Positions 45,923 to 63,733 of a DNA stretch of 64,000 nucleotides are shown piece by piece. Position numbers and translations under genes: made by a program. Each line of letters opens with the position of its first letter. The first letter of the stretch is position 1. Source of the DNA: Balneola sp. (GTDB taxonomy: Bacteria; Bacteroidota; Rhodothermia; Balneolales; Balneolaceae); assembly GCA_017640785.1 (NCBI GenBank), contig JAEPPZ010000009.1:62001-126000 (forward strand), given 5' to 3'. The notes below the pieces were generated by a model that worked only from the letters and a program-made list of their open reading frames with translations, was not told where the DNA came from and searched no databases.

Positions 45923-45995
<73 letters not shown>

Positions 45996-46003
45996 CAAGA
46001 TTA

Positions 46004-46048: not shown

Positions 46049-46779
46049 ATTTCGTTTAACTATTTGGTATCAATAAACCTGAGGGTACCTCAAGGGTAAC
46101 AGATTTTATTAATGCTCAGGGGTAATACTTATCCAATTGTCTGTAATAAATTTATAAACGTATCAAATGAATCTGAAATAGAAAGTGGTTTATTATATAA
46201 TTTGAGTCGTCCTGTAATAGAGATGTTATTACATTATTGGCTACTAAATTATATATGAAGTGTTTTTCTCTGACTATAAGCAACAATTTGACAATCATTG
46301 GACGAATAAGCCTGATAAAAGAAAAATAGAAATTTTACTTTTCAGGAACCTTAAAATCGAATTCGAATAATATTCGAGTGCCGGTTCGAGTCCGGCCTGC
46401 GGTACTTTAAAGCCTTGTAGCTCATTATCTTATAGAGTTACAGGGCTTTTTTTTTCACTAACTTATAAATGCTTACCATTCTGGGGACAACATAGGGACA
46501 CAAAATTTAGAATCTTTTCTGCTCAATTGTTGAGATAATTCTATAATTTTTTATAGCTATACGGCGTACTATTCTGCTATTGCTTAGTAATACTTGTTTT
46601 TTTGCATTGTATCTGCAATTTATGATCTAAATGAATATTTATAGTATAAAAGCAGCTCTAACCATAAAGACCATTTTTGGTATTAAATAATTAGCAGATA
46701 AGCAGATGAATGATTTTTTTACTTTAATCTTTGAATTCTTTAGTATTTGAAAAATCCAACCTTATACTGATGAAGAATA
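46049..46779. other. Non-coding stretch with a 3' half of a type II tRNA
   Basis: Most of the stretch is A/T-rich with no gene. At about 46350-46404 is the 3' half of a long-variable-arm tRNA (Leu/Ser class): loop-like CTTAAAA, variable arm TCGAATAATATTCGA, T-arm GCCGGTTCGAGTCCGGC, and CTGCGGTA as the acceptor 3' strand. It is followed by its own terminator. The matching 5' half (starting near ACCGCAG) is absent upstream. Such half-genes are commonly left where a tyrosine integrase inserted DNA in an anticodon loop. The left edge of the mobile element is probably near here. Confidence 0.6.
46409..46456 (+). terminator. Terminator downstream of the tRNA remnant
   Basis: AAAGCCTTGTAGCTC / GAGTTACAGGGCTTTT with a run of nine T, similar in design to the terminator after tRNA-Phe. 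Confidence 0.75.
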
Positions 46780-48052: not shown

Positions 48053-48250
48053 ATGAAAGTGATTCGCCCAAAACAGTTAGCCAAAATTTTATCTATATCG
48101 ACAGTCACTCTTTGGCGTATGGAAAAACGCGGGGAGCTTCCGCCCCGCAAAAGAATATCAACTCGAGCAGTTGGTTGGCTTGAAAGTGATATTGAAGAGT
48201 GGCTTAATAGCCTGCAAACCTCAACTGTTGATAATTCTGAAGAGGTATAA
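48053..48250 (+). CDS. AlpA-like HTH regulator/excisionase
   Basis: 65 residues. KVIRPKQLAKILSISTVTLW RMEKRGELPPRKRISTRAVG WLESDIEEWL is the AlpA/Xis-type pattern: a helix-turn-helix whose second part is the R-x-G-x-(I/L)-P wing and a W-L-E-S-x-I tail. Such proteins activate or excise integrated elements. Three bases separate its TAA from the next gene, so it probably leads the operon. Confidence 0.9.
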   Translation: MKVIRPKQLAKILSISTVTLWRMEKRGELPPRKRISTRAVGWLESDIEEWLNSLQTSTVDNSEEV

Positions 48251-48253
48251 TAA

Positions 48254-50272
48254 ATGAGTTGCATCAAACTACGAGTAAAGCTAGATCAGACAATTGATTC
48301 CGTTGGAGTAAGTACTCCCACTTTGAATAACGCTGAAAACCCAATGTGGAGTTTCCTGCATACCTTTTGCTTCGAGTATCCACTTGGGCGGTGGCATGGA
48401 GCGATTCAGGAAATTAATACATCCAACGCCTCAAGTAATGAAATCATAATTCCCACCAAGTTAGCAACTAGTCTTGGGCTGAATGAGGATGATAAAGTTA
48501 ATCTATCCATTAGCCATTATGATGCAATTAATACAATGCAGGTTGAAGAACTATCTCCAAAAAAGAGCGATAAAATTCCCACCCTTTGCGAGGGATTAGA
48601 GCTTAACACTCAATGCACTTTTCACTGGGAAGGAAAAACCTTTAAGGTGTTATCCAATGACCCTATTCAAGGATACTTTACCTCAGATACAACGGTGGAG
48701 GATCTTACTGAATCAGAAGATGGAACTGCTAGCAAGGTTATAACTTTTCAGAAGAATCAAGTTCCTGAAAAAAATAGGGGTTTCAATAAACTTGTTGGGG
48801 TAGACTGCACGATTGAGGAAATCAAAAAGAAGATACTTTATCCAATAGAAAACCCAGAAATAGCCCAGAAGTATTTGGGTGCACCTTTAAAGGGTGCCAT
48901 ATTATATGGGCCTTACGGTAATGGTAAAACTTCATTAGCTCGTGCCATATCGGAGGAAGCTAATTTAAATTTCGTTCATCTCCCTGTATCCGACACTTCG
49001 AGTATGTTATTTGGTCCAAGTATTATTAAGCAAGTATATGATACTGCTTCCAAAAACGAAGAAGGAACCATTGTATTTATTGATGAGATTGATTCGGTGG
49101 CTCCAAGAGGAAGTGAGGGATCTACTCTTACATCAACTCTTCAAGAATGCATGGATGGCTTCTCAAATAATAATGTATTCACCTTAGCAGCGACAAACCA
49201 TCCCAACAATATTGCTGAAGGCTTAATGAGGAGTGGAAGATTTGATCTAATCATTCCCGTACCACTACCAGATGTTAGTTCCAGAGAGAAACTCTTACGA
49301 TTTTATCTATCTCCGGTCGAACATGAACCATTAATGAACCTGTCATCACTGGCATCAACAACCAGCTCATACACAAGTTCAGATATAGAAAGTGTCGTAA
49401 AAAGTGCAGGATTAGATGCGCTTGAACGGGCATCTATAAGCGACAGCACCACATTAATTACCCAGGAAGACCTTGAAAAGAATATTCAGGCATTTACTCC
49501 TACTGGAGCTCGAATTCTTAATGTTAGTAAACCTGACCTCTGTTTTAGAGACCTATATGGAATGGAACCGTTCATTACCTCACTTAAGAAAAATCTTGAT
49601 TTGATAAGTGGAAAAACCCCCTCCAGGTACAGCAAAATTAAAGGATCAAAAATGTTACTCTCTGGGCCTCCGGGAACCGGAAAAACCAGTATGGCAAAAG
49701 CTATTGCACACTATCTTGATGCAAGTTTTGTTGCAAGATCAGCTACATCGTTTAAAAGTAAATGGGTAGGTGAAACAGAGGCATCAATTCGTAAACTATT
49801 TACAACGGCAAGGATGTATAAGCCTATTGTACTATTCATCGATGAAATAGATGCTTTAGCTAAGGGTAGAACCTCAGATAATCCACATAGTGCTGACGCC
49901 CTAAATGAGCTATTGGTTCAGTTAGAAGGGTTTGCTGACAATACCGACATATATTTCATTGCGGCAACGAATCGAAGAAACCTGTTGGATAGTGCCTTTT
50001 TGAGTAGGATGAATTATGAGTTCGAAATGCCCCTCCCAAATACACTCCAGCGTAAGCAGATTTTGATTGGGCTCATGGATGGACTGCCCACCAAAGGTAG
50101 CCTGGATTATGAATCACTTGCTAAAGATACAGAGGGACTCTCACACCGTGATTTAAATGGATTAGTTGGGCTAATGCGTGTAAAACTTGATTTGGGTGAA
50201 ATTCATAAAGTAACCCAAAGATCTATATGTGCCCTACTAGATGGATCCCGCCAGACAAATGGAGGTCTATAA
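48254..50272 (+). CDS. Cdc48-like tandem AAA+ ATPase
   Basis: 672 residues. The N-terminal about 110 residues resemble the double-psi-barrel N-domain of Cdc48/p97 (NEIIIPTKLATSLGLNEDDK). AAA1: ILYGPYGNGKTSLARAI (note N in the P-loop), TIVFIDEIDSVAPRG, and SGRFDLIIPVPLP. AAA2: LLSGPPGTGKTSMAKAI, IVLFIDEIDALAKGR and AATNRRNLLDSAFLSRM. Cdc48 proteins extract or unfold proteins. A mobile element carrying one is unusual; it might remodel a replication or defence complex. Overlaps the next gene by 1 base. Confidence 0.9.
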   Translation: MSCIKLRVKLDQTIDSVGVSTPTLNNAENPMWSFLHTFCFEYPLGRWHGAIQEINTSNASSNEIIIPTKLATSLGLNEDDKVNLSISHYDAINTMQVEELSPKKSDKIPTLCEGLELNTQCTFHWEGKTFKVLSNDPIQGYFTSDTTVEDLTESEDGTASKVITFQKNQVPEKNRGFNKLVGVDCTIEEIKKKILYPIENPEIAQKYLGAPLKGAILYGPYGNGKTSLARAISEEANLNFVHLPVSDTSSMLFGPSIIKQVYDTASKNEEGTIVFIDEIDSVAPRGSEGSTLTSTLQECMDGFSNNNVFTLAATNHPNNIAEGLMRSGRFDLIIPVPLPDVSSREKLLRFYLSPVEHEPLMNLSSLASTTSSYTSSDIESVVKSAGLDALERASISDSTTLITQEDLEKNIQAFTPTGARILNVSKPDLCFRDLYGMEPFITSLKKNLDLISGKTPSRYSKIKGSKMLLSGPPGTGKTSMAKAIAHYLDASFVARSATSFKSKWVGETEASIRKLFTTARMYKPIVLFIDEIDALAKGRTSDNPHSADALNELLVQLEGFADNTDIYFIAATNRRNLLDSAFLSRMNYEFEMPLPNTLQRKQILIGLMDGLPTKGSLDYESLAKDTEGLSHRDLNGLVGLMRVKLDLGEIHKVTQRSICALLDGSRQTNGGL

Positions 50273-52506
50273 TGAGCCAGTCTAATTTTTTCTTTTACAG
50301 CCGATACATTACACGCTTAAGTGCGGAAGACAATCTAAATAGTAAATTTCCATTAGTTGGTGATTCACCTTTTGGGGATGGACTTATCGAAATCAAAGGT
50401 GATGGAAACTTCCGGTGCAAAATGACCAATATAAATGGAAATAAGGAAAACTTTCTTAGACACCTTTATCCTTTACTTACTCAGGAAGGCATTGAAAGGG
50501 CAATTCGTTTTGAGGCAAAAGACCTTGATGAATTAAGTTTAGAGCAGTATCAAAGCAAGAAAACTAAAGTAGATTCCGAGGAGTATAAAACTGAATTTAG
50601 CTATTTGACAGGATTAGCACCCCAGACTTTTGATGGGGTATGGTTGGACAGTATCACTGAGGAGTTTTACGCATATGAAGTAGGTGCTATTAACCATCCT
50701 ATTTGTAGGTATCAGTGGAAACATGGAGATCGAAAAGATACCATATTGGGGACTCCAAGGATTCAGAAAGTTGATAGTAAACGGCTCTGGTTTACTAAAA
50801 ACCATTTTGAAGCCAACGAACTAAAAAAGCTTATTGATGATCCAGTGTTCGTCAGACCAAATGCTGATGCGCTAGGCTGGAATGATTATCAGACACTGGT
50901 TAAGGGGAAAGAAGTGATCTGTTTAATCGGTGATGAGAAAGGGAGCTGGAGATATTCCTTCTATCCTTTTTTGAAACAGATAAAAACATCAGCTTCTAGC
51001 ATTGCAACAGTGTATCTCTCTCCACTACTGGGTGATGATGCTCTTGCAAAGCACTTGAATACTAAAAGCATCCGTCTTATCCAAGACACTGCCCAAAAGC
51101 TGCTTGGAGAATCCCTCTTGATAATTGCTGAACATATCTACAATGAGTTCACTAGCCAGCGCCAGCAAAACACATTGTATTTTCCTCAAGATCTAAATAG
51201 CAATCTATTTTGGTATGGGCTAGCTGACGGACACATGGTTCATTCTTCCCCAATAAATATTTTCTCAAAAGAAGAGCTTGAAAGCAAATATTCTATTACT
51301 ACTCATGTCTACCCTAGCTCTGATATCCGTTTGACTAAGAAAGAAGTCTTAAACATTATTTCATCAAGCAGTCAGCTTACCCCACTAAACACTTTTCACC
51401 AAATCAGAAAATTTTTTGTCAAGTATGTCTATTTTGAACATAAGCAGCACACTACATTATGTACACTGTGGGTGTTAGGGACGTATATCTACCAGTTATT
51501 TCCTGAATTCCCTTACCTCCATCTTATGGGACATAGAAATTCAGGTAAAACTACCCTGATGGAAATAATATCAGAATGTAGTTTTAATGGGCTACGTGAG
51601 TCGCAGACAAGTAAAGCAAACCTGATTAAAAATATCCATGAAATAGGATCAACGGTGTGTTTGGATGAGTTTGAGCCTAATTCTAAAGGCACGGAGGATC
51701 AGTATATCCAAATGCTCAAGTCTGGTTACCGAAAGGGGGGAAATTATTCTAGAATGACAGGTAAAAAACAGGAATCTACGTTAAATGTATATTCCCCTAA
51801 AATTTTAGCTGGAGAAAGTAATATTGCCAATGAGGCCCTTAAATCTAGAGTTATTCAGATTAAAACACAGACAAAACCGTTAGGTGCTTCTTTGAGACTA
51901 TGGGACATAGAGGCTTCTAAAAACATAAAAACTTCAAAAATAATACGCCGTGGAGGTTATGCTCTTGGGTTACATCATCACCAAAGTATTAAACGAAATT
52001 ACAATCGCATCCACCCTGAGATCCACCTTCCCAGTGGTACGATGATTGGCTCCAGAAAGCGTCAGTTGGTAGCACCTTTGTTGTCAATAGCCCGTTTATT
52101 AGATACAGGGCAGGGTTCTACAAATGTTGAAGATGAGCTCCTTACCGCTGTAGAAATTTCATGGAATGAGCAGTTCGCTATTCATAATAAGGCGGCAAAG
52201 CTTTTATACGAACTTTTAGAGAAATGGAATAAGGATTCATCTTTCAAAAGGTATAAGGTTGATTCTAAATATCTATGGATTAGCAATAAAGTCTGGTTCA
52301 ACACAGAGTTGGCAGAGTATTTGGGTTCTAAAGATGCGGTACTAAAATGGTTTGAGAACTTAAGTGGTATCAATAAGGGATCAACACACTTTAAGTATGG
52401 TGGGACTGACGGAACTGGTGATTCTGAGGGATACACAAAATTTCCTCTCAATCTAAAAATAAAAAATATTACTATCGGTGAGATCTTTAGACGTAAAACG
52501 CCCTAA
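50272..52506 (+). CDS. P-loop ATPase of the mobile element (replication-helicase-like)
   Basis: 744 residues from ATG at 50272, which shares an A with the upstream TAA and has GGAGG 6 bases before. N-terminal half without a known fold. ATPase core: LMGHRNSGKTTLMEIISE (Walker A), TVCLDEFEPNSKGTEDQ (Walker B) and an arginine-bearing ANEALKSRVIQIKT. The order matches SF3/D5-like or DUF927-type element helicases, but the exact family is not settled. Coupled to the Cdc48-like gene. Confidence 0.75.
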   Translation: MSQSNFFFYSRYITRLSAEDNLNSKFPLVGDSPFGDGLIEIKGDGNFRCKMTNINGNKENFLRHLYPLLTQEGIERAIRFEAKDLDELSLEQYQSKKTKVDSEEYKTEFSYLTGLAPQTFDGVWLDSITEEFYAYEVGAINHPICRYQWKHGDRKDTILGTPRIQKVDSKRLWFTKNHFEANELKKLIDDPVFVRPNADALGWNDYQTLVKGKEVICLIGDEKGSWRYSFYPFLKQIKTSASSIATVYLSPLLGDDALAKHLNTKSIRLIQDTAQKLLGESLLIIAEHIYNEFTSQRQQNTLYFPQDLNSNLFWYGLADGHMVHSSPINIFSKEELESKYSITTHVYPSSDIRLTKKEVLNIISSSSQLTPLNTFHQIRKFFVKYVYFEHKQHTTLCTLWVLGTYIYQLFPEFPYLHLMGHRNSGKTTLMEIISECSFNGLRESQTSKANLIKNIHEIGSTVCLDEFEPNSKGTEDQYIQMLKSGYRKGGNYSRMTGKKQESTLNVYSPKILAGESNIANEALKSRVIQIKTQTKPLGASLRLWDIEASKNIKTSKIIRRGGYALGLHHHQSIKRNYNRIHPEIHLPSGTMIGSRKRQLVAPLLSIARLLDTGQGSTNVEDELLTAVEISWNEQFAIHNKAAKLLYELLEKWNKDSSFKRYKVDSKYLWISNKVWFNTELAEYLGSKDAVLKWFENLSGINKGSTHFKYGGTDGTGDSEGYTKFPLNLKIKNITIGEIFRRKTP

Positions 52507-52829
52507 AAGTCCTTCAAGAGGCTGGTTCTAAAATTCTAAAGCATCTAAAACGGTTTGGGTAAAGTGTACTTTACAGTATGAAGTTAACACCTATCGCAGT
52601 TTGGAACCTGTTTATACGATACTGATTTAGAAGTTTTAGATTTTATTATCGTAGTAAAATTGGGCTCCACAGCGTCATATAAAGCTTTATAAAATAAATA
52701 TCCTATTACAGCTGTTTTTATTTGTTTTAGATTTGATTATTAACACGTCAAGGTGTAGAATTATAGAAAGGGATGTGCGAACACCCCGCTAAATTAAAAT
52801 TTAAACCCCTAATAAATAGGAATTATAAA
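52507..52829. other. Non-coding stretch before the TGA-containing genes
   Basis: No gene in either code. It contains two related segments TTTTAGATTTTATTAT (about 52634) and TTTTAGATTTGATTAT (about 52725) and A/T-rich sequence that could form promoters; AATAGGAATTATAAAATG provides a weak ribosome binding site for the gene at 52830. No suppressor tRNA is seen. Confidence 0.5.
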
Positions 52830-53408
52830 ATGAAAAATCATATCAGAATTAATCAGGTCCACAGTGGGCCAAGAGGCTGAACCAAAAAGCTCATGGAAGT
52901 CCATGGGGAACAGAAAGTACGCGAGTACTGGATAGAACATGGCAACCGGAAAACCGCGGAGCACTTTGGGGTTTCGCCATGAACAATCACTCACTGCAGA
53001 AAGAAATACCAATGGAAACGCCCCCTCGAAAAGGTACCCAATATTCTAAAAGCAGTAGCCAGAGGAAATGCAGATCCAAATAATTATCCTCATCTAGAAT
53101 TTAACGCCCCCATTTCCAGTGTTGGGGTTCCTCAAAAGGAGGACATCCAACGGCACGCCTACTACCTGATTAAAAAGCGCACCTTTATTGGATTTTGCAC
53201 TTTAAACCAAGGGTACACCTATTGTGATAATATCTATAGGTGATTCGAAGGTGACCCTAAGATGGACTGGGTAGAATCCTATGAGGATTTGATTAAGGCC
53301 ATGAAAGACGATAAATCAGGATACTTCGAGCCTAGACACTTCCAAAAAGTCGAAACCGTCTATAAGCACTACACGGAGCGAACATCAGGGTTTTATTTTG
53401 AAGACTAG
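52830..53408 (+). CDS. HTH protein with three in-frame TGA codons (UGA read as Trp?)
   Basis: With TGA read as Trp the frame runs 192 residues from ATG 52830 to TAG 53406. TGA occurs at 52878 (residue 17), 52980 (51) and 53241 (138); TGG is also used three times. Residues about 30-65 form a helix-turn-helix (REYWIEHGNRKTAEHFGVSP-[TGA]-TITHCRKKYQW), and a residue like Trp or Lys is normal at the interrupted spot. The rest (AYYLIKKRTFIGFCTLNQGY, KAMKDDKSGYFEPRHF) is unassigned. No frameshift and no other stop. If TAG were also read, the frame would extend to TAA 53448. As a standard-code gene it would be a fragment. Confidence 0.7.
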
Positions 53409-53578: not shown

Positions 53579-56059
53579 ATGAAAATAGAATTTACAGCCG
53601 ATATGCGCACTTTTGACGCTAAGCCAAACCAACAGGAAGCAGCCCGAATTAGCGGAAGCCTAAAACCTGTGTATGTAGAAAGTGTCGAAGAATTCGTGGA
53701 AGATATGCAGCATGGTCGTACCTGAAGCCCATCCAACTTTAATGGTTCGCGATCGAATGCCAACTGAATAGGCCAAAGTATTCTAGCGCTTGATGTGGAT
53801 GGGGGGTTGACACCCGGAGAAGCTATCCAAAGAATGCGAGCCTATGAACTCACACCCAATGCTTGGTATCCTACCTTTAGTGACTCGCCAGCAAAACGTA
53901 AGTTTAGGCTCATATTCTTCCTGGATACCTTCATCACTGACATTGATGCCAGAAATTATCTAATGGATGGTCTATTCGCTCTATACCCGGAAGCCGATCG
54001 AGCTTGTAAAGATCCCGCTCATATTTTCTACGGGACCAATAAGAACGGTCAGGTGCTAAATTCCAAAGCGTTGCCGTTGGATCTTTTCTTAACCGTGCTG
54101 GAATCAGATAAGATTAAAAACGGTGCCAGACTACGAAACATAGACCCTCAGAAAGCAGGAGCAGCGTTTTTGAGAAAAATTGGAGAAACTGAAGTCTCCT
54201 ATAGTAATACTATAGGAGACTTACAAAAAGCCACACCTGAGCAAAAAAAAAATTACTATGAAAGTCTTAAAAAAAATAAACGCGGTAAAATTGTCGATTT
54301 TGATAAGCTACAATCCAGAGTTCGGCTATTTTTCGACTTCATGCATAGTGAGCAGCGACTATCGTATGCTCAACTCTTAGGGCTAGCGCAAAGCTTGGCA
54401 TGAATGAATGGTGGACAGAAAATCTATGAAGATCGCCTCCAAGAGTTTAATGCTACCCATACGGGGAAAAACCCCTACCCTAAAGACGGCCGTTTTGAGC
54501 TTATGCGTAGCCTCAACAAGTATAATAAGCGCATTGACACAGCTTATTTCCCTCAGCGACTGGAAAACTTTTCGCCCTACCCTTCTGACCACGCTTACCG
54601 CAATTTAATAACGGCCGAGCGAGACCTTATTGATGGAATAGAGCAAACCCAGCCCATCCAAAGAATGTCTCTTATACACGCTGAACAACTTCTCAATTAT
54701 AAGTTTAATGAAGCCATGGATTGCCTGCGCGACGATATATGGATTTTTAGGTTGCCTACAGGTATAGGGAAAACCCGGCGAATAAAAGAATTGGATGAAG
54801 TTACTTTAGCCTTTCCAACGAACAATCTGAAGCGAGAGGTATATTCCGAGCGGGAAGACGCTACCTCTGCGACTTTGACCCCTGAATTCCCTGTATTTAC
54901 CGACGAAGTCCTCAATGAAGGCATTCAAAGGCTCTTTAAAGCTGGGTTTGTAAAGCAAGTCCACAAGCTACTTTGGGATCTAACAAAAGGGCTTGGGTGT
55001 GGCACGAATGATCAACAGCTGGCTCAAGCGTACATTGACAAAAACCAAGCAGTGCAACACTCCGTTGGTAGCGTCTTTACCACACACTCTCGCGCAATCC
55101 ATACCCCATTTAGTCACGACACCATCATCTTTGATGAAGACCCTCTTTCGCTACTCTTAGATGTAGATACTTTGAAGATTGCTGACTTGAAGAAGATTAA
55201 AAAGAAAAGTAGATCGATATTATTCGGCCATTACCGGACTAGTCTCATTGGACTCCAGCGATATTTGGAAGGCGTTGAAGAGGGGGAAATCCTCACTCTA
55301 CCTGATGAGCATAAAGTTGATATCGCAAACGAGTGGCAGCATATCATGCAAACAGAGGGTATTACCAGCAATATTATGAAGTTTCTTGGCTGTACGTATT
55401 TCTACAAAGATGAGTCTGATCGTGATTTGATCCACTTTATACACAAGGAGAAGCTCCCCGATGATAAAAAGATCATTATCATGAGCGCTACCATTCCCGT
55501 TGAAATCTATAAAGAGCTTTATGGGGAGCGAGTGAATGTTATAGACATTACAGATGTAACGCACCGTGGAAGTATTACCCAACACACTAAGTATTCTTAC
55601 TCTAGAAATAGTTTAGCCCAACGATTAGAACAGGCCAATACCAAGCTTAATAAACGCCCTACCATTACCTTTAAAAGCTTCAATGAACAAATAGACAATG
55701 CTACCCCTGATATGTGGTTTGGAAACTGTTCTGGGTATAACAACTACACAGGGATTTCCATTAATGTGCTTGGAACTCCACACAAACACAATGCTCAGTA
55801 CCTGCTGATTGGTAAAGTGCTAGGCGTTCCTGTCGATACTTTTAATCGAGGCTTTAGAATGCAAATGGTCGAGTGAAACGGGTTTCGTTTCAACTTCAAT
55901 ACCTACGACAATAAGCGCCTGCAAAACATTCAGCTGAGCCTTATTGAAAGCGAATTGACACAAGCTGCTGGACGAGCCCGAGCCCTCAGAGAAGAAGTGG
56001 AAGTAGATATATACGCCAACTTGCCACTGCGAATTACTCAAACCTTTGTGGATGATTAG
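53579..56059 (+). CDS. Primase/SF2-helicase with four in-frame TGA codons (UGA as Trp?)
   Basis: 826 residues from ATG 53579 to TAG 56057 if TGA is Trp. TGA codons: 53723 (residue 49), 53765 (63), 54401 (275) and 55874 (766); five TGG are also present. The primase-like N-region reads RT-[TGA]-SPSNFNGSRSNAN-[TGA], then ILALDVDGGLTPGEAI, where the family has a Trp-Ser-Pro motif. Helicase: Walker A LPTGIGKTRR (about 392-401), DEDP box TIIFDEDPLSLL (about 519-522), motif III IIIMSATIP (about 636-640), and motif VI QAAGRARALRE (about 795-805), which lies after the fourth TGA. No frameshift or other stop over 2.5 kb. Likely the element's replication protein. Confidence 0.8.
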
Positions 56060-56305: not shown

Positions 56306-56749
56306 CTATATTAATCCTTGCTCTCTAAGCGACAAATATCCACCCTGCGTAAGGATAACATGGTCATCGACAGTTATACCCAATAGTTTACCCGCGTCCG
56401 TTAAACGCCGCGTGAGGGAAATATCTGCGGAACTTGCTCTTAAATTTCCAGACGGATGGTTGTGTGCGCAAATTATTGAATCTGCTTTGCCTAATAGTGC
56501 TAGTTGAAACACAGCAGAAGGTTCTACTATTGTGGCGGTGCTACCTCCTATGGAAATCCTACTCCACCCTAAGACTTTCTTGGCATTGTTTAGCAAAACT
56601 ACAATGAATTCTTCACGAAGCTCTAAAGTGTTTTCATCCCATATTGATCGTAAATATTCTGTTGCTTCTTGTGGGCTTGTAATGGATGGTAAGGTTTCGA
56701 CTGATTTGGTAGCTTTGTAAGCAAGCGAGACCTCTGAAATGGTTGGCAT
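56306..56749 (-). CDS. radC: RadC-type JAB-domain protein
   Basis: 147 residues. JAMM motif visible as E of the early region and HNHPSGNLRASSADISLTRR (H-x-H-x7-S-x2-D). Mobile-element RadC proteins like this are common on plasmids and integrative elements; despite the name, a role in DNA repair is not established. Its Trp codons are TGG. It reads towards the primase-helicase gene. Confidence 0.93.
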   Translation of the reverse strand: MPTISEVSLAYKATKSVETLPSITSPQEATEYLRSIWDENTLELREEFIVVLLNNAKKVLGWSRISIGGSTATIVEPSAVFQLALLGKADSIICAHNHPSGNLRASSADISLTRRLTDAGKLLGITVDDHVILTQGGYLSLREQGLI

Positions 56750-58634: not shown

Positions 58635-59318
58635 ATGAGCTCATACAGAGTCATAGACAGAATTCAGATTGAGCCACATATCTTGTTCCTCAGGATTGAG
58701 CCAACCGATATTAAGTTAACTCTTGGTGATATTTTCAAATCATTGTCCGATATTGCTTGGATAAGTGATTTCGACAAGAAGTATATAAGGGATGCGTTCA
58801 CAATACGTGCTACTGAAACAATTAATTATATAGCTGATAATATTATTGCTGAGACTGATGATGAAATAACTAAGGACTCAGGTGAAATTGTTGTTTCGGA
58901 ACTAGCACGATTAGCAATAGTAAACGAAAATAATTACTTAGATATACCATTAGCAGAGCTTTTTAAAAGCCAAGCATCAGGAAATGATGGCTTTGACTTT
59001 TACTCTAAAAATCTCACTAAAATCATACTATTTGGTGAGGCTAAATTTCTTTCTGATCGCAATGCTTATGGGAAAGCTTTTAATAAAATTGTTGAATTTG
59101 TAGGCTTAGAACAAGACTCATCTGATTTACAAGATATCGATAAATTTTACTGTGCGGAGTCTTTAGACAATCACTCCAATGGAAAGAAAGGATTTATGGC
59201 TGCCTTTTCCAGCAAAAACACAGACACTGATAGAATACTTAAAGGAATAAAAGCGAATACTGACTTTAATGCCCTTAAGGGGTTTGATGAGCTAATCTGT
59301 GTTGCAGTCAACGTATGA
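58635..59318 (+). CDS. hamA: Hachiman defence protein HamA (DUF1837)
   Basis: 227 residues. DUF1837-type nuclease: SELARLAIVNENNYLDIPLA (conserved Glu89), SGNDGFDFYSKN (Asp121) and IILFGEAKFLSD (Glu135/Lys137), the PD-(D/E)XK core seen in HamA. Known Hachiman: HamA is a nuclease held inactive by the HamB helicase and released when HamB senses phage DNA disturbance. It starts 14 bases after an attC. The TGA stop overlaps the hamB start (ATGA at 59315). Confidence 0.9.
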   Translation: MSSYRVIDRIQIEPHILFLRIEPTDIKLTLGDIFKSLSDIAWISDFDKKYIRDAFTIRATETINYIADNIIAETDDEITKDSGEIVVSELARLAIVNENNYLDIPLAELFKSQASGNDGFDFYSKNLTKIILFGEAKFLSDRNAYGKAFNKIVEFVGLEQDSSDLQDIDKFYCAESLDNHSNGKKGFMAAFSSKNTDTDRILKGIKANTDFNALKGFDELICVAVNV

Positions 59319-61636
59319 ACAATGCAATAAAAAATATCATTGGTGCCGAGAATATTGGCGATATAGTATCTTTTGTTTTAGACCGAATTTATAAGAATGG
59401 GCCAGTGTCCACAACTGATATGGAAATTCTTTCTTATTTAAAACTTTATAAACCCGAAGAATTCAATCTTCATCAGGAAAGGGTTTTGCACTACATGGGT
59501 CTTTTTTACAAAGATGTTAAGCCTCAGTCATTAAAAGAAGTTGTATTCAGGCAATACAGAAGGCATATTATTGAGAATTTTCAACACACATATACGCCCG
59601 TACAAGCAAGTATTATTAGTGAAATTGAATCAAATAAATGCTTTAGTTTTTCGGCACCTACTAGTACAGGCAAGTCTTATGTTTTCATGAATCTTATTCA
59701 AGAAAGCACGGATGATATTGTCATTATAGTTCCTTCAAGAGCACTTATTAACGAGTATTATCACAAGCTCAATAAATTAATTGATAACAAATCTGTAAAT
59801 ATTTTAACCTTTATAGACAAGATCAATACTAAACATGCAGAACGCAATGTATTCATAGTTACACCTGAAAGATGCAGGGAGTTATTTAAGTTTAAAGAGC
59901 AATACCAAGTAAATACATTTCTATTTGATGAGGCTCAACTGAGTAATGAAGACTCAAAACGAGGATTATATTTTGACAGTATTGTAAGAAGGGCGCAAAA
60001 AGCATTTCCTGACTCGACATTTGTTTTTGCCCATCCTTTTGTTGCCAATCCTGATTCCCAAATTAAAAAGAATCACTTTGAATCAGATTCATCAAAGTCA
60101 GTCCAGTTCAAGCAAAAAAATGTTGGACAATTATACCTCTGCTCAGATCGTGATTGGAATTTCTATCACTTCGGAATTGACAAATCTATAATGGGCAATA
60201 TAAAAGAGCCATGCGACTTTGACCCCATTAAAAGAACAATAAAAAACGATGGCTCTGTACTTTTCTATGTTTCAAAAAGCAAAATCTACAATAAGGGATT
60301 TCTAAATCAATTTGAAAGATACATCAACTTATGTTCTGAAATTGAAGGTGAGAAAATCGATTCCTACATAGAACAGTTAAAAGAATATACAGGTGGAGAT
60401 ACGATAGCAAATAAAAACTATTATTCTCAATTACTAGCTTTATTAAAAAGAGGTATAGTTATACACCATGGCTCTTTACCTCTTCAAACAAGGTTAATAC
60501 TTGAAAAATTTACACAAGATGGATTGTGCAGAATTTGTTTTGCAACATCTACGCTGGAGCAAGGGGTAAATATGCCCTTTGATGTAGTGTTTCTAGATAG
60601 GTTACAACGAAGCAAACCTTTATCGGTTAAAAATCTCATTGGACGTGCAGGAAGGTCTACTACTTCTAATGAATTTGATTTTGGCTACGTCATAATAAAT
60701 TCACCTACAAAAATGTCCGCATTTCGCCGTATAATTGTCCAAGATGAAATATTGGACGAAGAATCTTCACTTGAAAAATCAGAACAAAAGGATGATGATT
60801 ATAACGACTTTAAAGAGGCAATTTTAAAAGATACTTACTCTGATGAATTCAATCTAACTGAAAAAGACTTAGATAAACTTACTTCAGATTCCAGTGAGGA
60901 AGTAATTAAACTTTTATTGGATAGCATATTTGATGAAAATCAAAATATAATCCCACTTAGTACAATAAACTTAGATCTCAGAAATAGGTTAAGCCTATAC
61001 TCTTATTTTAGAAGTTTATATTCAATTTACTTAAATCGTCCGCTCGGAAGAGGCGAAACCAATGTTTTAGATACCGCCATAAAAATAGTTATATGGCAAG
61101 TTCACGGTAAAACCTTTAAGAATATTTGTTGGTTTCGCTATTCGCACGCAAGTAAAACAAATGAACGAGCGCGCTTAGAAAGGTTAGGAAGAAGAACTGA
61201 CGACATTGCGCCAAACTTTATTACAGGATACAGTCCTATCCCTGACAAAAGCATACCTGTTTATAGCATTTTTCAAGATGTAAAGAGAGCATCTGATGTC
61301 GATTATGATCTAATAATGACAGACACCTATGACTATATTGACAAGTTAATTAGCTTCAAATTAACGGATGTTTTTTATGCATCATTTATAAAATATTTTC
61401 AAAAGGAGAATGACCCTCGAGCTGAGAAACTTGCTAAGTTTATTAAATATAGTACTGATAACGAAAAACATATATGGATGCTTCGATACGGTATGTCATT
61501 TGAAGACATTGAAAAATTAGAGCCCCATATCCTTTCTATTAATGCTGAGGAAATAGTTTTTAAGGAATCGATTTTAGAAGTACCAAGGGAAGAAAGAGAA
61601 TCAATTGAAAGATTTATTAGAATACAAACAGAATAA
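59315..61636 (+). CDS. hamB: Hachiman defence helicase HamB
   Basis: 773 residues. Ski2/SF2-like helicase: Walker A SFSAPTSTGKSYVFMN (113-121), VTPERCRELF, DEAQ box TFLFDEAQLSNE (205-208), later HHGSLPLQTRLILEKF, FATSTLEQGVNMPFDVVFLD (motif V) and LIGRAGRSTTS (motif VI). Standard stop TAA. Together with HamA forms an anti-phage system. Both genes lie between attC-like sites. Confidence 0.92.
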   Translation: MNNAIKNIIGAENIGDIVSFVLDRIYKNGPVSTTDMEILSYLKLYKPEEFNLHQERVLHYMGLFYKDVKPQSLKEVVFRQYRRHIIENFQHTYTPVQASIISEIESNKCFSFSAPTSTGKSYVFMNLIQESTDDIVIIVPSRALINEYYHKLNKLIDNKSVNILTFIDKINTKHAERNVFIVTPERCRELFKFKEQYQVNTFLFDEAQLSNEDSKRGLYFDSIVRRAQKAFPDSTFVFAHPFVANPDSQIKKNHFESDSSKSVQFKQKNVGQLYLCSDRDWNFYHFGIDKSIMGNIKEPCDFDPIKRTIKNDGSVLFYVSKSKIYNKGFLNQFERYINLCSEIEGEKIDSYIEQLKEYTGGDTIANKNYYSQLLALLKRGIVIHHGSLPLQTRLILEKFTQDGLCRICFATSTLEQGVNMPFDVVFLDRLQRSKPLSVKNLIGRAGRSTTSNEFDFGYVIINSPTKMSAFRRIIVQDEILDEESSLEKSEQKDDDYNDFKEAILKDTYSDEFNLTEKDLDKLTSDSSEEVIKLLLDSIFDENQNIIPLSTINLDLRNRLSLYSYFRSLYSIYLNRPLGRGETNVLDTAIKIVIWQVHGKTFKNICWFRYSHASKTNERARLERLGRRTDDIAPNFITGYSPIPDKSIPVYSIFQDVKRASDVDYDLIMTDTYDYIDKLISFKLTDVFYASFIKYFQKENDPRAEKLAKFIKYSTDNEKHIWMLRYGMSFEDIEKLEPHILSINAEEIVFKESILEVPREERESIERFIRIQTE

Positions 61637-61826: not shown

Positions 61827-62594
61827 ATGAACCTACAACTATTCTGCTTTCCGGTAACGGAAAGAGCTGTTGCCGTCGACAACGCAAAAGCCCCTCTTAT
61901 CGACATCGAAGACCAAGACTCCTTCTTACCAAATGGCTATAAAGCTATCGTGCGCGAAGATACCAATGAAGTCATTTCCATCGTGAAAGACACCTATAAG
62001 ATTGTGAAGAATTCGGATCTCATTGATCAGCTTCTTCGCCAGCTTGCAACGTGCGGGCAAAGCTTCAAAATTGATCCATCACATTCCTTTGTAAGTAACG
62101 AACGTATGCGACTTCAGATTACTTTCCCAGAGCTTCGTCTCCGTGATCGTGAATCGGATATTGCCTTATCAGCTTTTATTCATAATTCATATGACCAGAG
62201 TGAAGGGGTACGATTCTATTTTGGTGCCATAAGAGCCATATGTAGTAACGGCATGGTATTCGGGAAAATCCTTTCCAAGTATTATTCCCGTCATACGTCT
62301 GGCTTCTCTTTCGAGAATCTAGGTGAAAAGCTTGCTGAGGCTCGAGAGTACTTCCCAGAGATCCAAGAGCGCATCAATCGCTTAGAAATTCTCCGAGTGG
62401 ACGAGCAACTCATTGAAAACGTATCCACCAAGATTTCCAAGCGACTTGCCGAACAAGCAATAGCCGAGGAAGAGATTGGACGCATTTCTCAGTGGCAACT
62501 TCTGAATAGGCTAACCAACCATATCTCTCACCAGATGGAGCCACGCATGCAAGCCAAGTACCAAGATAACGTAAGCAAGGTGTTTGCCTTATGA
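61827..62594 (+). CDS. DUF932 protein of the mobile element
   Basis: 255 residues. DUF932 pattern: KAIVREDTNEVISIVKDTYK, SFVSNERMRLQITFPELRLR and IALSAFIHNSYDQSEGVRFY FGAIRAICSNGMVFGK. This family is common on phages and plasmids; function unknown, linked with recombination genes. The TGA stop (62592) overlaps the ATG of a small gene, which shows that TGA is used as a stop here. Confidence 0.92.
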   Translation: MNLQLFCFPVTERAVAVDNAKAPLIDIEDQDSFLPNGYKAIVREDTNEVISIVKDTYKIVKNSDLIDQLLRQLATCGQSFKIDPSHSFVSNERMRLQITFPELRLRDRESDIALSAFIHNSYDQSEGVRFYFGAIRAICSNGMVFGKILSKYYSRHTSGFSFENLGEKLAEAREYFPEIQERINRLEILRVDEQLIENVSTKISKRLAEQAIAEEEIGRISQWQLLNRLTNHISHQMEPRMQAKYQDNVSKVFAL

Positions 62595-62755
62595 AGACAT
62601 ACTACCTCATCTTAAAGCTTCTGCTCCATGAAATATTGCGAGACGTAATCAATGCCGTAGTCGATTTCGTTCGTCGCATCCTTCGGCTACTATTGCTTGG
62701 GGAGGATTTTATCCCTTACCAAGAAGAAGCCTTTCATTCAGAGCCTTTCGAGTAA
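62591..62755 (+). CDS. Small amphipathic/membrane peptide
   Basis: 54 residues starting at the ATGA overlap. TYYLILKLLLHEILRDVINA VVDFVRRILRLLLLGEDFIP is a long amphipathic-hydrophobic helix rich in Leu with periodic Arg. Ends with TAA inside a terminator stem. Real by coupling and terminator; role unknown. Confidence 0.65.
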   Translation: MKTYYLILKLLLHEILRDVINAVVDFVRRILRLLLLGEDFIPYQEEAFHSEPFE

Positions 62756-62772
62756 TCGAGAGGCTTTTTTAT
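62741..62772 (+). terminator. Rho-independent terminator
   Basis: Stem AGCCTTTCGAG / TCGAGAGGCT with loop TAA, then TTTTTT. Stem overlaps the end of the small peptide gene. Confidence 0.85.
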
Positions 62773-62797
62773 TTCTAACAACTAACACATACTTATT

Positions 62798-63733
62798 ATG
62801 AAATCATTAGACTCAGCGCTTCCCTCCGACGAGTGGGTAAAGGAGCGTTCAAATTATATAGGAGGAAGCGATGTAGGGACCATACTTGGTGAGAATCCAT
62901 ATTCTACCCCTCTGCAGTTATGGCTTCGAAAGAACGGAGCCTTGCCTCCCATCGAGGAAACACCCATCCTTCGATTTGGCCATTTCTTCGAGCAGATTCT
63001 TTCCATTCATTTTGAAGAAACGACCGGGCTTAAAACCCGACAGGTAAATAAAACCTATGAGCATTCTACTTATGCCTTCCTTAGGGCCAACATTGATAGA
63101 ATGGTGCTCGCTGATCCCGAAAAAGGATTGTCTACGACGGCCGTCTTAGAACTCAAAACCACAACCAGCCATAGGCTTAAAGCCTTAGGGGGTGAATATC
63201 CAAAGGAATGGATACTTCAAGTGCAGCACTATTTGGGAATCACGGGCTACTCCAAAGCCTACCTTCAGTGCTATGAAAGAGACACCTGCAAGTTCCATGA
63301 TCCAGTACTCATCGAACGAGATGATAATCTGATCGCAGAAAATATGGGCAAGCTCATAGCCTGGTGGGATACTCATATGGTAAATGGGAAAAGACCCGCA
63401 CCTATCAATGGAGAGGATAGGCTTATCTTGTATCCTAACTCCTATGATGGGAAGACGGTTGAAGCCACCCCTGCCGTGTACAGCCTGTACACAGAGCTGA
63501 AAACTATCAGAGAACGCAAAGCAGATCTGGAAAAGATGGAAGAGTACCTCAAAGTACGTATCCAAGATAAACTCCAATCTGGAGAACGACTTGTATGTGG
63601 AGGCAAAACTCTGGTTAGCTGGAAAAGCTCCTCACAAAATAGGTTGGACATGGCCTCCTTTAAGGAAGCTCATCCCAAGCTTTACCAGCAGTACTTAAAA
63701 GAAACCAAAACCCGACGGTTTACCGTCCATTAA
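62798..63733 (+). CDS. YqaJ-family viral recombinase/exonuclease
   Basis: 311 residues. YqaJ/lambda-exo type nuclease: NYIGGSDVGTILGENPYSTP at the start, FGHFFEQILSIHFEETTGLK, then ANIDRMVLADPEKGLSTTAV LELKTTTSHRLKALGG (D and E-x-K catalytic residues) and WILQVQHYLGITGYSKAYL. 5'-3' exonuclease that prepares ends for single-strand annealing; paired here with the next gene. TAA stop; Trp codons are TGG. Confidence 0.93.
   Translation: MKSLDSALPSDEWVKERSNYIGGSDVGTILGENPYSTPLQLWLRKNGALPPIEETPILRFGHFFEQILSIHFEETTGLKTRQVNKTYEHSTYAFLRANIDRMVLADPEKGLSTTAVLELKTTTSHRLKALGGEYPKEWILQVQHYLGITGYSKAYLQCYERDTCKFHDPVLIERDDNLIAENMGKLIAWWDTHMVNGKRPAPINGEDRLILYPNSYDGKTVEATPAVYSLYTELKTIRERKADLEKMEEYLKVRIQDKLQSGERLVCGGKTLVSWKSSSQNRLDMASFKEAHPKLYQQYLKETKTRRFTVH

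Follow-up and report, generated by a model that had tools for sequence, protein, structure and literature searches.

UGA is read by tRNA-Trp in the programmed readthrough that extends the Q-beta coat protein to the minor product A1, a case with a single UGA, and an early in-frame UGA near codon 25 of the RF2 gene, prfB, senses termination activity in a programmed frameshift. Stop codons are also recoded in mobile DNA. Phages of code 4 or 15 (Borges et al. 2022, cited in PMC10879173 and PMC11210395) read UGA or UAG as an amino acid in standard-code hosts; by these accounts the recoding concerns mainly structural and lysis genes, is proposed to delay expression of the chosen genes and is served by suppressor tRNAs of the phages' own. 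In certain bacteria the reassignment of UGA to tryptophan is genome-wide, and their tRNA-Trp(CCA) has a 4-bp anticodon stem while a UCA tRNA is absent (PMC13092985).

The locus considered here is part of an integrative element in Balneola sp. and was analysed in a window of 64,000 nucleotides (contig JAEPPZ010000009.1, positions 62,001 to 126,000). Like the recoded phages, as far as the accounts cited go, it has UGA as an amino acid codon in a mobile element of a standard-code host; unlike them, it and its relatives are integrative islands in which the replication module alone is affected, no suppressor tRNA was found and UGA is concentrated at the first tryptophan. With Q-beta it has in common that UGA stands for Trp in a bacterium of the standard code and is probably read by the normal tRNA-Trp, but there are 1 to 7 UGAs per gene rather than one, and an early UGA that goes unread would block any useful product. 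The early in-frame UGA recalls prfB, where the frame is shifted, whereas here the frame would be kept and Trp inserted. The likeness to the reassigned bacteria is in reading UGA as Trp without a UCA tRNA, and two hosts of the genus Fodinibius share the 4-bp stem; the difference is that the hosts here stop at UGA and the window's host has a 5-bp stem. As to the protein, known PrimPol-helicases (AEP PrimPol; VapE/D5; DinG/XPD) have the same domains, DxD, Walker motifs and motif VI, but it is the Balneolales copies that are written with UGA and the homologues elsewhere that are not. Within stop-codon recoding, what appears to be new is the restriction to island replication modules of standard-code hosts, the recurrence in three replicase types and the apparent lack of an own suppressor tRNA.

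The PrimPol-helicase gene and its homologues

An earlier note on this DNA had described a single 826-codon frame at 53579-56059 interrupted by TGA alone, and so it is: there are four TGA, a closing TAG, zero internal TAA or TAG and no frameshift. The count of five TGG tryptophan codons (96, 388, 466, 586 and 713) is also correct, and the name primase-helicase agrees with an AlphaFold model (mean pLDDT 85) whose fold matches PrimPol and DinG, Foldseek giving E 8e-9 for DinG, of the DinG/XPD helicases, and E 2e-5 for the PrimPol of cyanophage S-2L. D72 and D74 (DxD), GK(T), DED and QxxGRxR are conserved, in keeping with an AEP fold, Walker A/B and motif VI. Trp 49 sits in the PrimPol part of the model, and since ordered strands and helices flank it on both sides, restart 3′ of the first UGA would be expected to cost part of the PrimPol domain. 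Features of the locus and of the element are collected in Table 1.

Table 1. Features of the module and the surrounding element, in window coordinates.
Feature	Position	Strand	Remarks
attL, 3′ part of tRNA-Phe	45949..45981	+	33-bp direct repeat
AlpA-like excisionase/regulator	48053..48250	+	Pfam Phage_AlpA E 8.5e-11; no in-frame TGA
Two-domain AAA ATPase	48254..50272	+	Pfam AAA E 1.4e-66; no in-frame TGA
Weak primase/D5-like protein	50272..52506	+	phrog_1139 DNA primase E 1e-6; 13 TGG, no in-frame TGA
Promoter-like TTGATT - 17 nt - TAGAAT	52733..52761	+	same layout 5′ of most UGA modules
Short hairpin GGGATGT-gcga-ACACCCC	52770..52787	+	predicted transcript 5′ end; ViennaRNA fold; modest evidence
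UGA gene 1, HTH-like DNA-binding protein (predicted)	52830..53408	+	192 codons; directly 5′ of PrimPol-helicase
In-frame TGA of UGA gene 1	52878, 52980, 53241	+	codons 17, 51, 138; Trp sites
UGA gene 2, PrimPol + SF2 (DinG/XPD-like) helicase	53579..56059	+	826 codons
In-frame TGA of PrimPol-helicase	53723, 53765, 54401, 55874	+	codons 49, 63, 275, 766
Trp 49 TGA	53723..53725	+	invariant early UGA, 8/8 Balneolales copies
Palindrome AAGTCTCCTATAGTAATACTATAGGAGACTT	54192..54222	+	31 nt; within PrimPol-helicase coding frame, synonymous sites conserved
RadC-like JAB gene	56306..56749	-	after module; Pfam RadC E 2.4e-37; no in-frame TGA
DUF932 + YqaJ/RecE-like exonuclease genes	61827..63733	+	no in-frame TGA
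Tyrosine integrase, Arm-DNA-bind_3	84983-86245	-	adjoins attR
attR	86406-86438		beyond window end; 33-bp repeat partner of attL

Homologues were sought in 92 genomes of the same family as the window's host. The frame is present in six other genomes of the family, with 5, 2, 2, 3, 7 and 1 in-frame TGA respectively (one further match there is a short fragment), and there is an eighth full-length copy in a different family of Balneolales; the majority of the named copies come from MAGs. These seven are 46-76% identical to the window's copy and keep the frame, which puts it well beyond chance, with 1-7 TGA each, nearly all at Trp columns, the copy of the cultured type strain Fodinibius roseus DSM 21986 having its sole in-frame TGA at Trp 49. 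When the eight copies are aligned by codon, TGA and TGG exchange at Trp 63, 96, 275, 466, 713 and 766. Every one of the eight has TGA for Trp 49 despite saturated synonymous sites. Homologues have Trp, as TGG or TGA, at all four residues that the earlier note had taken for tryptophan (49, 63, 275 and 766). Its statement that related primases have Trp at 53723 is borne out too: at column 49 Trp predominates, mainly coded by TGG, among distant homologues outside Balneolales (from Bacteroidota, cyanobacteria and viral contigs, 23-39% identical), which are without in-frame TGA. A selenoprotein was rejected as a candidate, as the residues that homologues have at the UGA sites are mostly Trp and rarely Cys. 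The G044 copy carries an additional TAG in frame, at a Lys codon, and one of its TGA falls outside the Trp columns; its contig is a fragmentary one from a MAG, and error or decay may be involved.

Between the Balneolales copies pS is 0.58-0.90, mostly saturated, and pN 0.08-0.40, and with pN well below pS the protein is under selection through the stops; pN is lower than pS also 5′ of the first TGA. This bears on gene decay, or G-to-A hypermutation of TGG codons, in which the internal stops would be damage. A single G-to-A change does turn TGG into TGA, and an internal TAG is present in the G044 copy, but the purifying selection through the stops is strong at saturated synonymous divergence, TAA, TAG and frameshifts are essentially absent from the eight homologues, and the same pattern repeats in three replicase types. 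The earlier note was right to dismiss a decayed gene, as a frame under such selection, whose stops are TGA with essentially no others, is no pseudogene.

A patch of conserved synonymous sites at codons 199-228, the strongest in the gene, corresponds to the palindrome AAGTCTCCTATAGTAATACTATAGGAGACTT, which is kept in four or five of the eight homologues. It is a candidate origin or binding site and is probably unrelated to UGA recoding. A cis recoding element at Trp 49 was considered and rejected, synonymous-site conservation there being 0.41 compared with 0.42 overall.

When the neighbourhood is read in table 4, the gene at 52830-53408 proves to have three in-frame TGA, which were absent from the earlier note. 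TGA occupies codon 17/18 in four of four close relatives, and every distant relative found has at least two; AlphaFold models the protein with low confidence (mean pLDDT 71). Upstream of 13 of 15 modules there is a promoter-like TTGA(C/T)N-17-TAGAAT or near variant (the 17-nt form in 10), compared with 5.9% of random host windows. Hairpins similar to that in Table 1 follow the promoter-like sequence in several other modules (L139-L148), with a GNRA-like loop in several copies.

Three replicase types with the same pattern

A profile of the small upstream protein led to ten more places in Balneolales, each with at least two TGA. Around them are a second replicase module with a PrimPol-VapE protein of 631-681 codons (an NrS-1 polymerase-like HBD plus a VapE domain) and 3-6 TGA, a third of split form, with a BT4734-like/PriCT_2 primase and a VapE helicase, and small partner genes. 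The collected set comprises 41 UGA genes at 18 loci in 14 genomes, with 123 TGA and 160 TGG in total, and each of the 41 has in-frame TGA, starting between codons 3 and 61. In the class, ten of ten matches to the A4 family have at least two TGA.

In the PrimPol-VapE family the residue opposite TGA is Trp 83 times, followed by Tyr at 17, and TGA and TGG exchange at the same Trp columns, as they do in the PrimPol-helicase. With all module families pooled, Trp makes up 50% of the residues opposite TGA and 57% of those opposite TGG, and from these near-equal shares TGA behaves like TGG. It is well supported by these comparisons that UGA encodes Trp in the replication modules, and the pattern is, on the sequences at hand, a property of the whole module that recurs in three replicase types. 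The earlier note had the frame and the Trp reading right; what it saw was one gene of a larger phenomenon.

Early UGA favored, later UGA partly avoided

In 36 of the 41 genes the first Trp is written TGA, against 87 of 242 among the other Trp codons (36%; Fisher 5e-10); permutation within genes gives 22.2 expected at the first Trp against the 36 observed (p 5e-5). The neutral share of A-ending codons is about 0.60 (58-63% of comparable NNA/NNG choices), and TGA is above this rate at the first Trp (p 1e-4) and below it at the remaining ones (p 4e-14). Kinship within families makes the effective sample smaller than the 41 genes, so that these p values overstate the evidence; counting one gene per family, first-Trp TGA is 7.3 observed against 4.0 expected of 8. 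The excess is clear in P1, P2, T290 and R; it lies with the PrimPol-helicase and its HTH partner, with T290 and with the VapE replicases. No first-Trp excess is seen in the small HTH and ORF3 genes, most of their Trp being TGA anyway.

With the first Trp above and the rest below neutral, there seems to be selection for early UGA and partial avoidance of later UGA. The earlier note had likened the mix of TGA and TGG to a transitional or suppressor-dependent code; a code in transition does not agree with the over-representation of TGA at the first Trp codon and its under-representation later. Nor does hypermutation find support here, as the third-position A share is an ordinary 0.60 and early TGA is enriched; together with the selection described above, decay or hypermutation is refuted as a general explanation and can be given next to no weight.

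The rest of the element and the host

The element, about 40.5 kb, is integrated in tRNA-Phe (45923-45996), as is a related island, that of G024, which is bounded by a 63-bp repeat. From its att repeats and integrase it looks intact. Just inside attL, at 46378-46410, is a fragment like the 3′ end of another tRNA gene, perhaps the scar of an earlier integration. The closest PADLOC model for the AAA ATPase is IetA. Judged by sequence alone, the element also seems to encode a type I restriction system. Possible defence cargo of the island is found at 58635-61636, where a helicase similar to HamB (Hachiman defence) is encoded beside an uncharacterised 227-aa gene and a PIN-domain gene. The DUF932 and YqaJ/RecE-like exonuclease genes are common to many related elements.

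The earlier note had ascribed the reading of UGA as Trp to the element; the Trp reading is supported, but not for the whole element, as UGA is confined to the replication module. The 25 other genes of the window's element contain 103 TGG without an internal TGA, and the corresponding count for the G024 element is 119 TGG in 28 other genes, with the proviso that these genes were counted as standard-code ORFs and so are without internal TGA by construction. Code-4 gene calls on the window's element yielded no further TGA-broken gene beyond end extensions and in-frame neighbours. A scan of 780 kb of the host, with 519 genes and 2613 TGG, turned up no comparable multi-TGA gene, its hits being mostly adjacent genes that share a frame or extensions of a start; it is not exhaustive, because the same criterion recovers 24 of the 41 module genes. 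The host stops at UGA, TGA ending 53 of the 519 sampled genes. A genome or phage of genetic code 4 was rejected as a candidate, UGA being still a stop in the host and the other genes of the element being without internal TGA. Elsewhere in the phylum, VapE relatives were found at 26 places, one of them with TGA. Phage and plasmid records gave weak N-terminal PrimPol matches alone, and alignment-based scans led from the PrimPol-helicase to distant TGA-free relatives alone and from the second replicase family to distant primases.

Which tRNA reads UGA

The earlier note had proposed a search for a tRNA-Trp with the anticodon UCA. None turned up: among the host's 34 tRNAs, CCA is the only anticodon for Trp, and ARAGORN, permissive Rfam models and a tRNA-Trp similarity scan found no UCA tRNA in the host or element stretches, in searches that a very divergent tRNA could escape. 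An anticodon-arm pattern scan of the host, whose 101 matches were for the most part judged by eye alone, also gave no UCA tRNA. The single tRNA-Trp(CCA) of the window's host is identical in a related genome that is without the element, and has a 5-bp anticodon stem, A9 and G24, none of which is a known suppressor feature. In the Fodinibius-genus hosts G010 and G012 (loci L103 and L102), tRNA-Trp(CCA) has a 4-bp anticodon stem with a G27-A43 mismatch, and such a 4-bp stem raises UGA readthrough in E. coli (PMC13092985).

The codons themselves have some bias in context, A following TGA in 64 of 123 cases (52%) and TGG in 55 of 160 (34%; p 0.0035), a difference that mutation context could also cause. 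In E. coli, UGA has been described as particularly liable to be misread by tRNA-Trp when the next base is A (Engelberg-Kulka 1981, as cited in PMC5289835). More generally UGA is the leakiest bacterial stop, with Trp inserted, and in E. coli, where readthrough inserts mainly Trp, cold and nutrient scarcity increase it, with one context at about 80% in the cold (PMC11126739). On the tRNA, +4 A and readthrough evidence the normal tRNA-Trp(CCA), conditional or constitutive, is ranked first as the reader and a suppressor brought by a phage second.

One form that reading by the normal tRNA could take is constitutive leakiness, in which a constant some-percent of UGA is read as Trp and the early UGAs just lower the dose of replication protein, as copy-number control with no switch. 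The +4 A bias, the leakiness of UGA (PMC11126739) and the 4-bp stem in G010 and G012 (PMC13092985) would all suit it, but with 5-7 UGAs per gene almost no product would be made unless readthrough were high, the hosts keep UGA as a stop, and the stem in the window's own host is the normal 5 bp. On balance constant leakiness seems unlikely. It overlaps with the regulatory gate proposed below in having the same proposed reader, and differs from it on the existence of a switch.

Alternatively, suppression could come in trans, from a helper phage or other element that supplies tRNA-Trp(UCA) and that the islands, as satellites, sense by their UGAs. Several UGAs per gene demand efficient suppression, recoded phages with UGA as Trp and suppressor tRNAs exist (PMC10879173; PMC11210395), and the gene content of the elements is satellite-like, with an AlpA-like regulator, a tRNA att site, an Arm-DNA-bind_3 integrase and VapE/PrimPol replicases. 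Against this, no helper is known, the host and element stretches are without a UCA tRNA as described, and single-protein searches of viral contigs returned no phage contig sharing the UGA genes. A narrow test for a prophage helper, with the single terminase model PF17289, gave a match in just one of 127 Balneolales genomes, and that match was without TGA. A suppressor in trans is accordingly judged improbable, though deserving of some weight.

If message or DNA were corrected before translation, by A-to-I editing that turns UGA into UGI, which is read as UGG, or by some other sequence change, many UGAs per gene could be accounted for with no need of suppression, and so could the restriction to one module. 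No editing factor was seen in the module, however, and the UGA contexts have just the mild +4 A bias and no strong shared motif. The known editing of bacterial mRNA by TadA has a different context, which also counts against this idea, and it must be considered very improbable.

A proposed gate on element replication

The best explanation from the patterns in these sequences, with a probability of about 0.6, is that UGA serves as a gate on element replication that opens when UGA is read as Trp, and the early UGA is likely a regulatory gate. In the ordinary state of the host RF2 would terminate at the early UGA, leaving no replicase and a silent element; in another state UGA would be read as Trp, the HTH-like protein and the PrimPol-helicase would be made, and the element could replicate. 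A stop near the start of the gene would save cost and prevent truncated enzymes. As output would scale as efficiency to the power k, k being the number of UGAs, several in series would make the response steep, so that a moderate change in suppression might bring a large change in replicase. That the first Trp is favored as UGA and later ones are partly avoided fits a gate that still has to pass enough product.

Least certain in the proposal is the reader, which may be the host's ordinary tRNA-Trp(CCA), as a near-cognate of UGA, instead of a dedicated suppressor tRNA. Cold, starvation, low pH and phage attack are proposed as triggers that would weaken RF2 or favor readthrough. Up to seven UGAs in a gene are difficult to reconcile with leaky reading by itself, unless its efficiency is high. 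A further, tentative idea, held at somewhat under even odds, is that unrelated Balneolales replicases have convergently kept an early UGA, and that this is a dedicated translational switch for which the genetic code itself would be the inducing signal, replication beginning only once the cell, or a phage entering it, reads UGA as Trp.

Because standard gene callers break UGA genes, island replicases of this sort have probably been entered in annotations as fragments or pseudogenes. With Fodinibius roseus DSM 21986 the system has a host in culture, in which the opening of the proposed gate is directly testable. If the proposal is true, the decoding of a stop codon would act as an on/off control of mobile DNA replication in bacteria that use the standard code.
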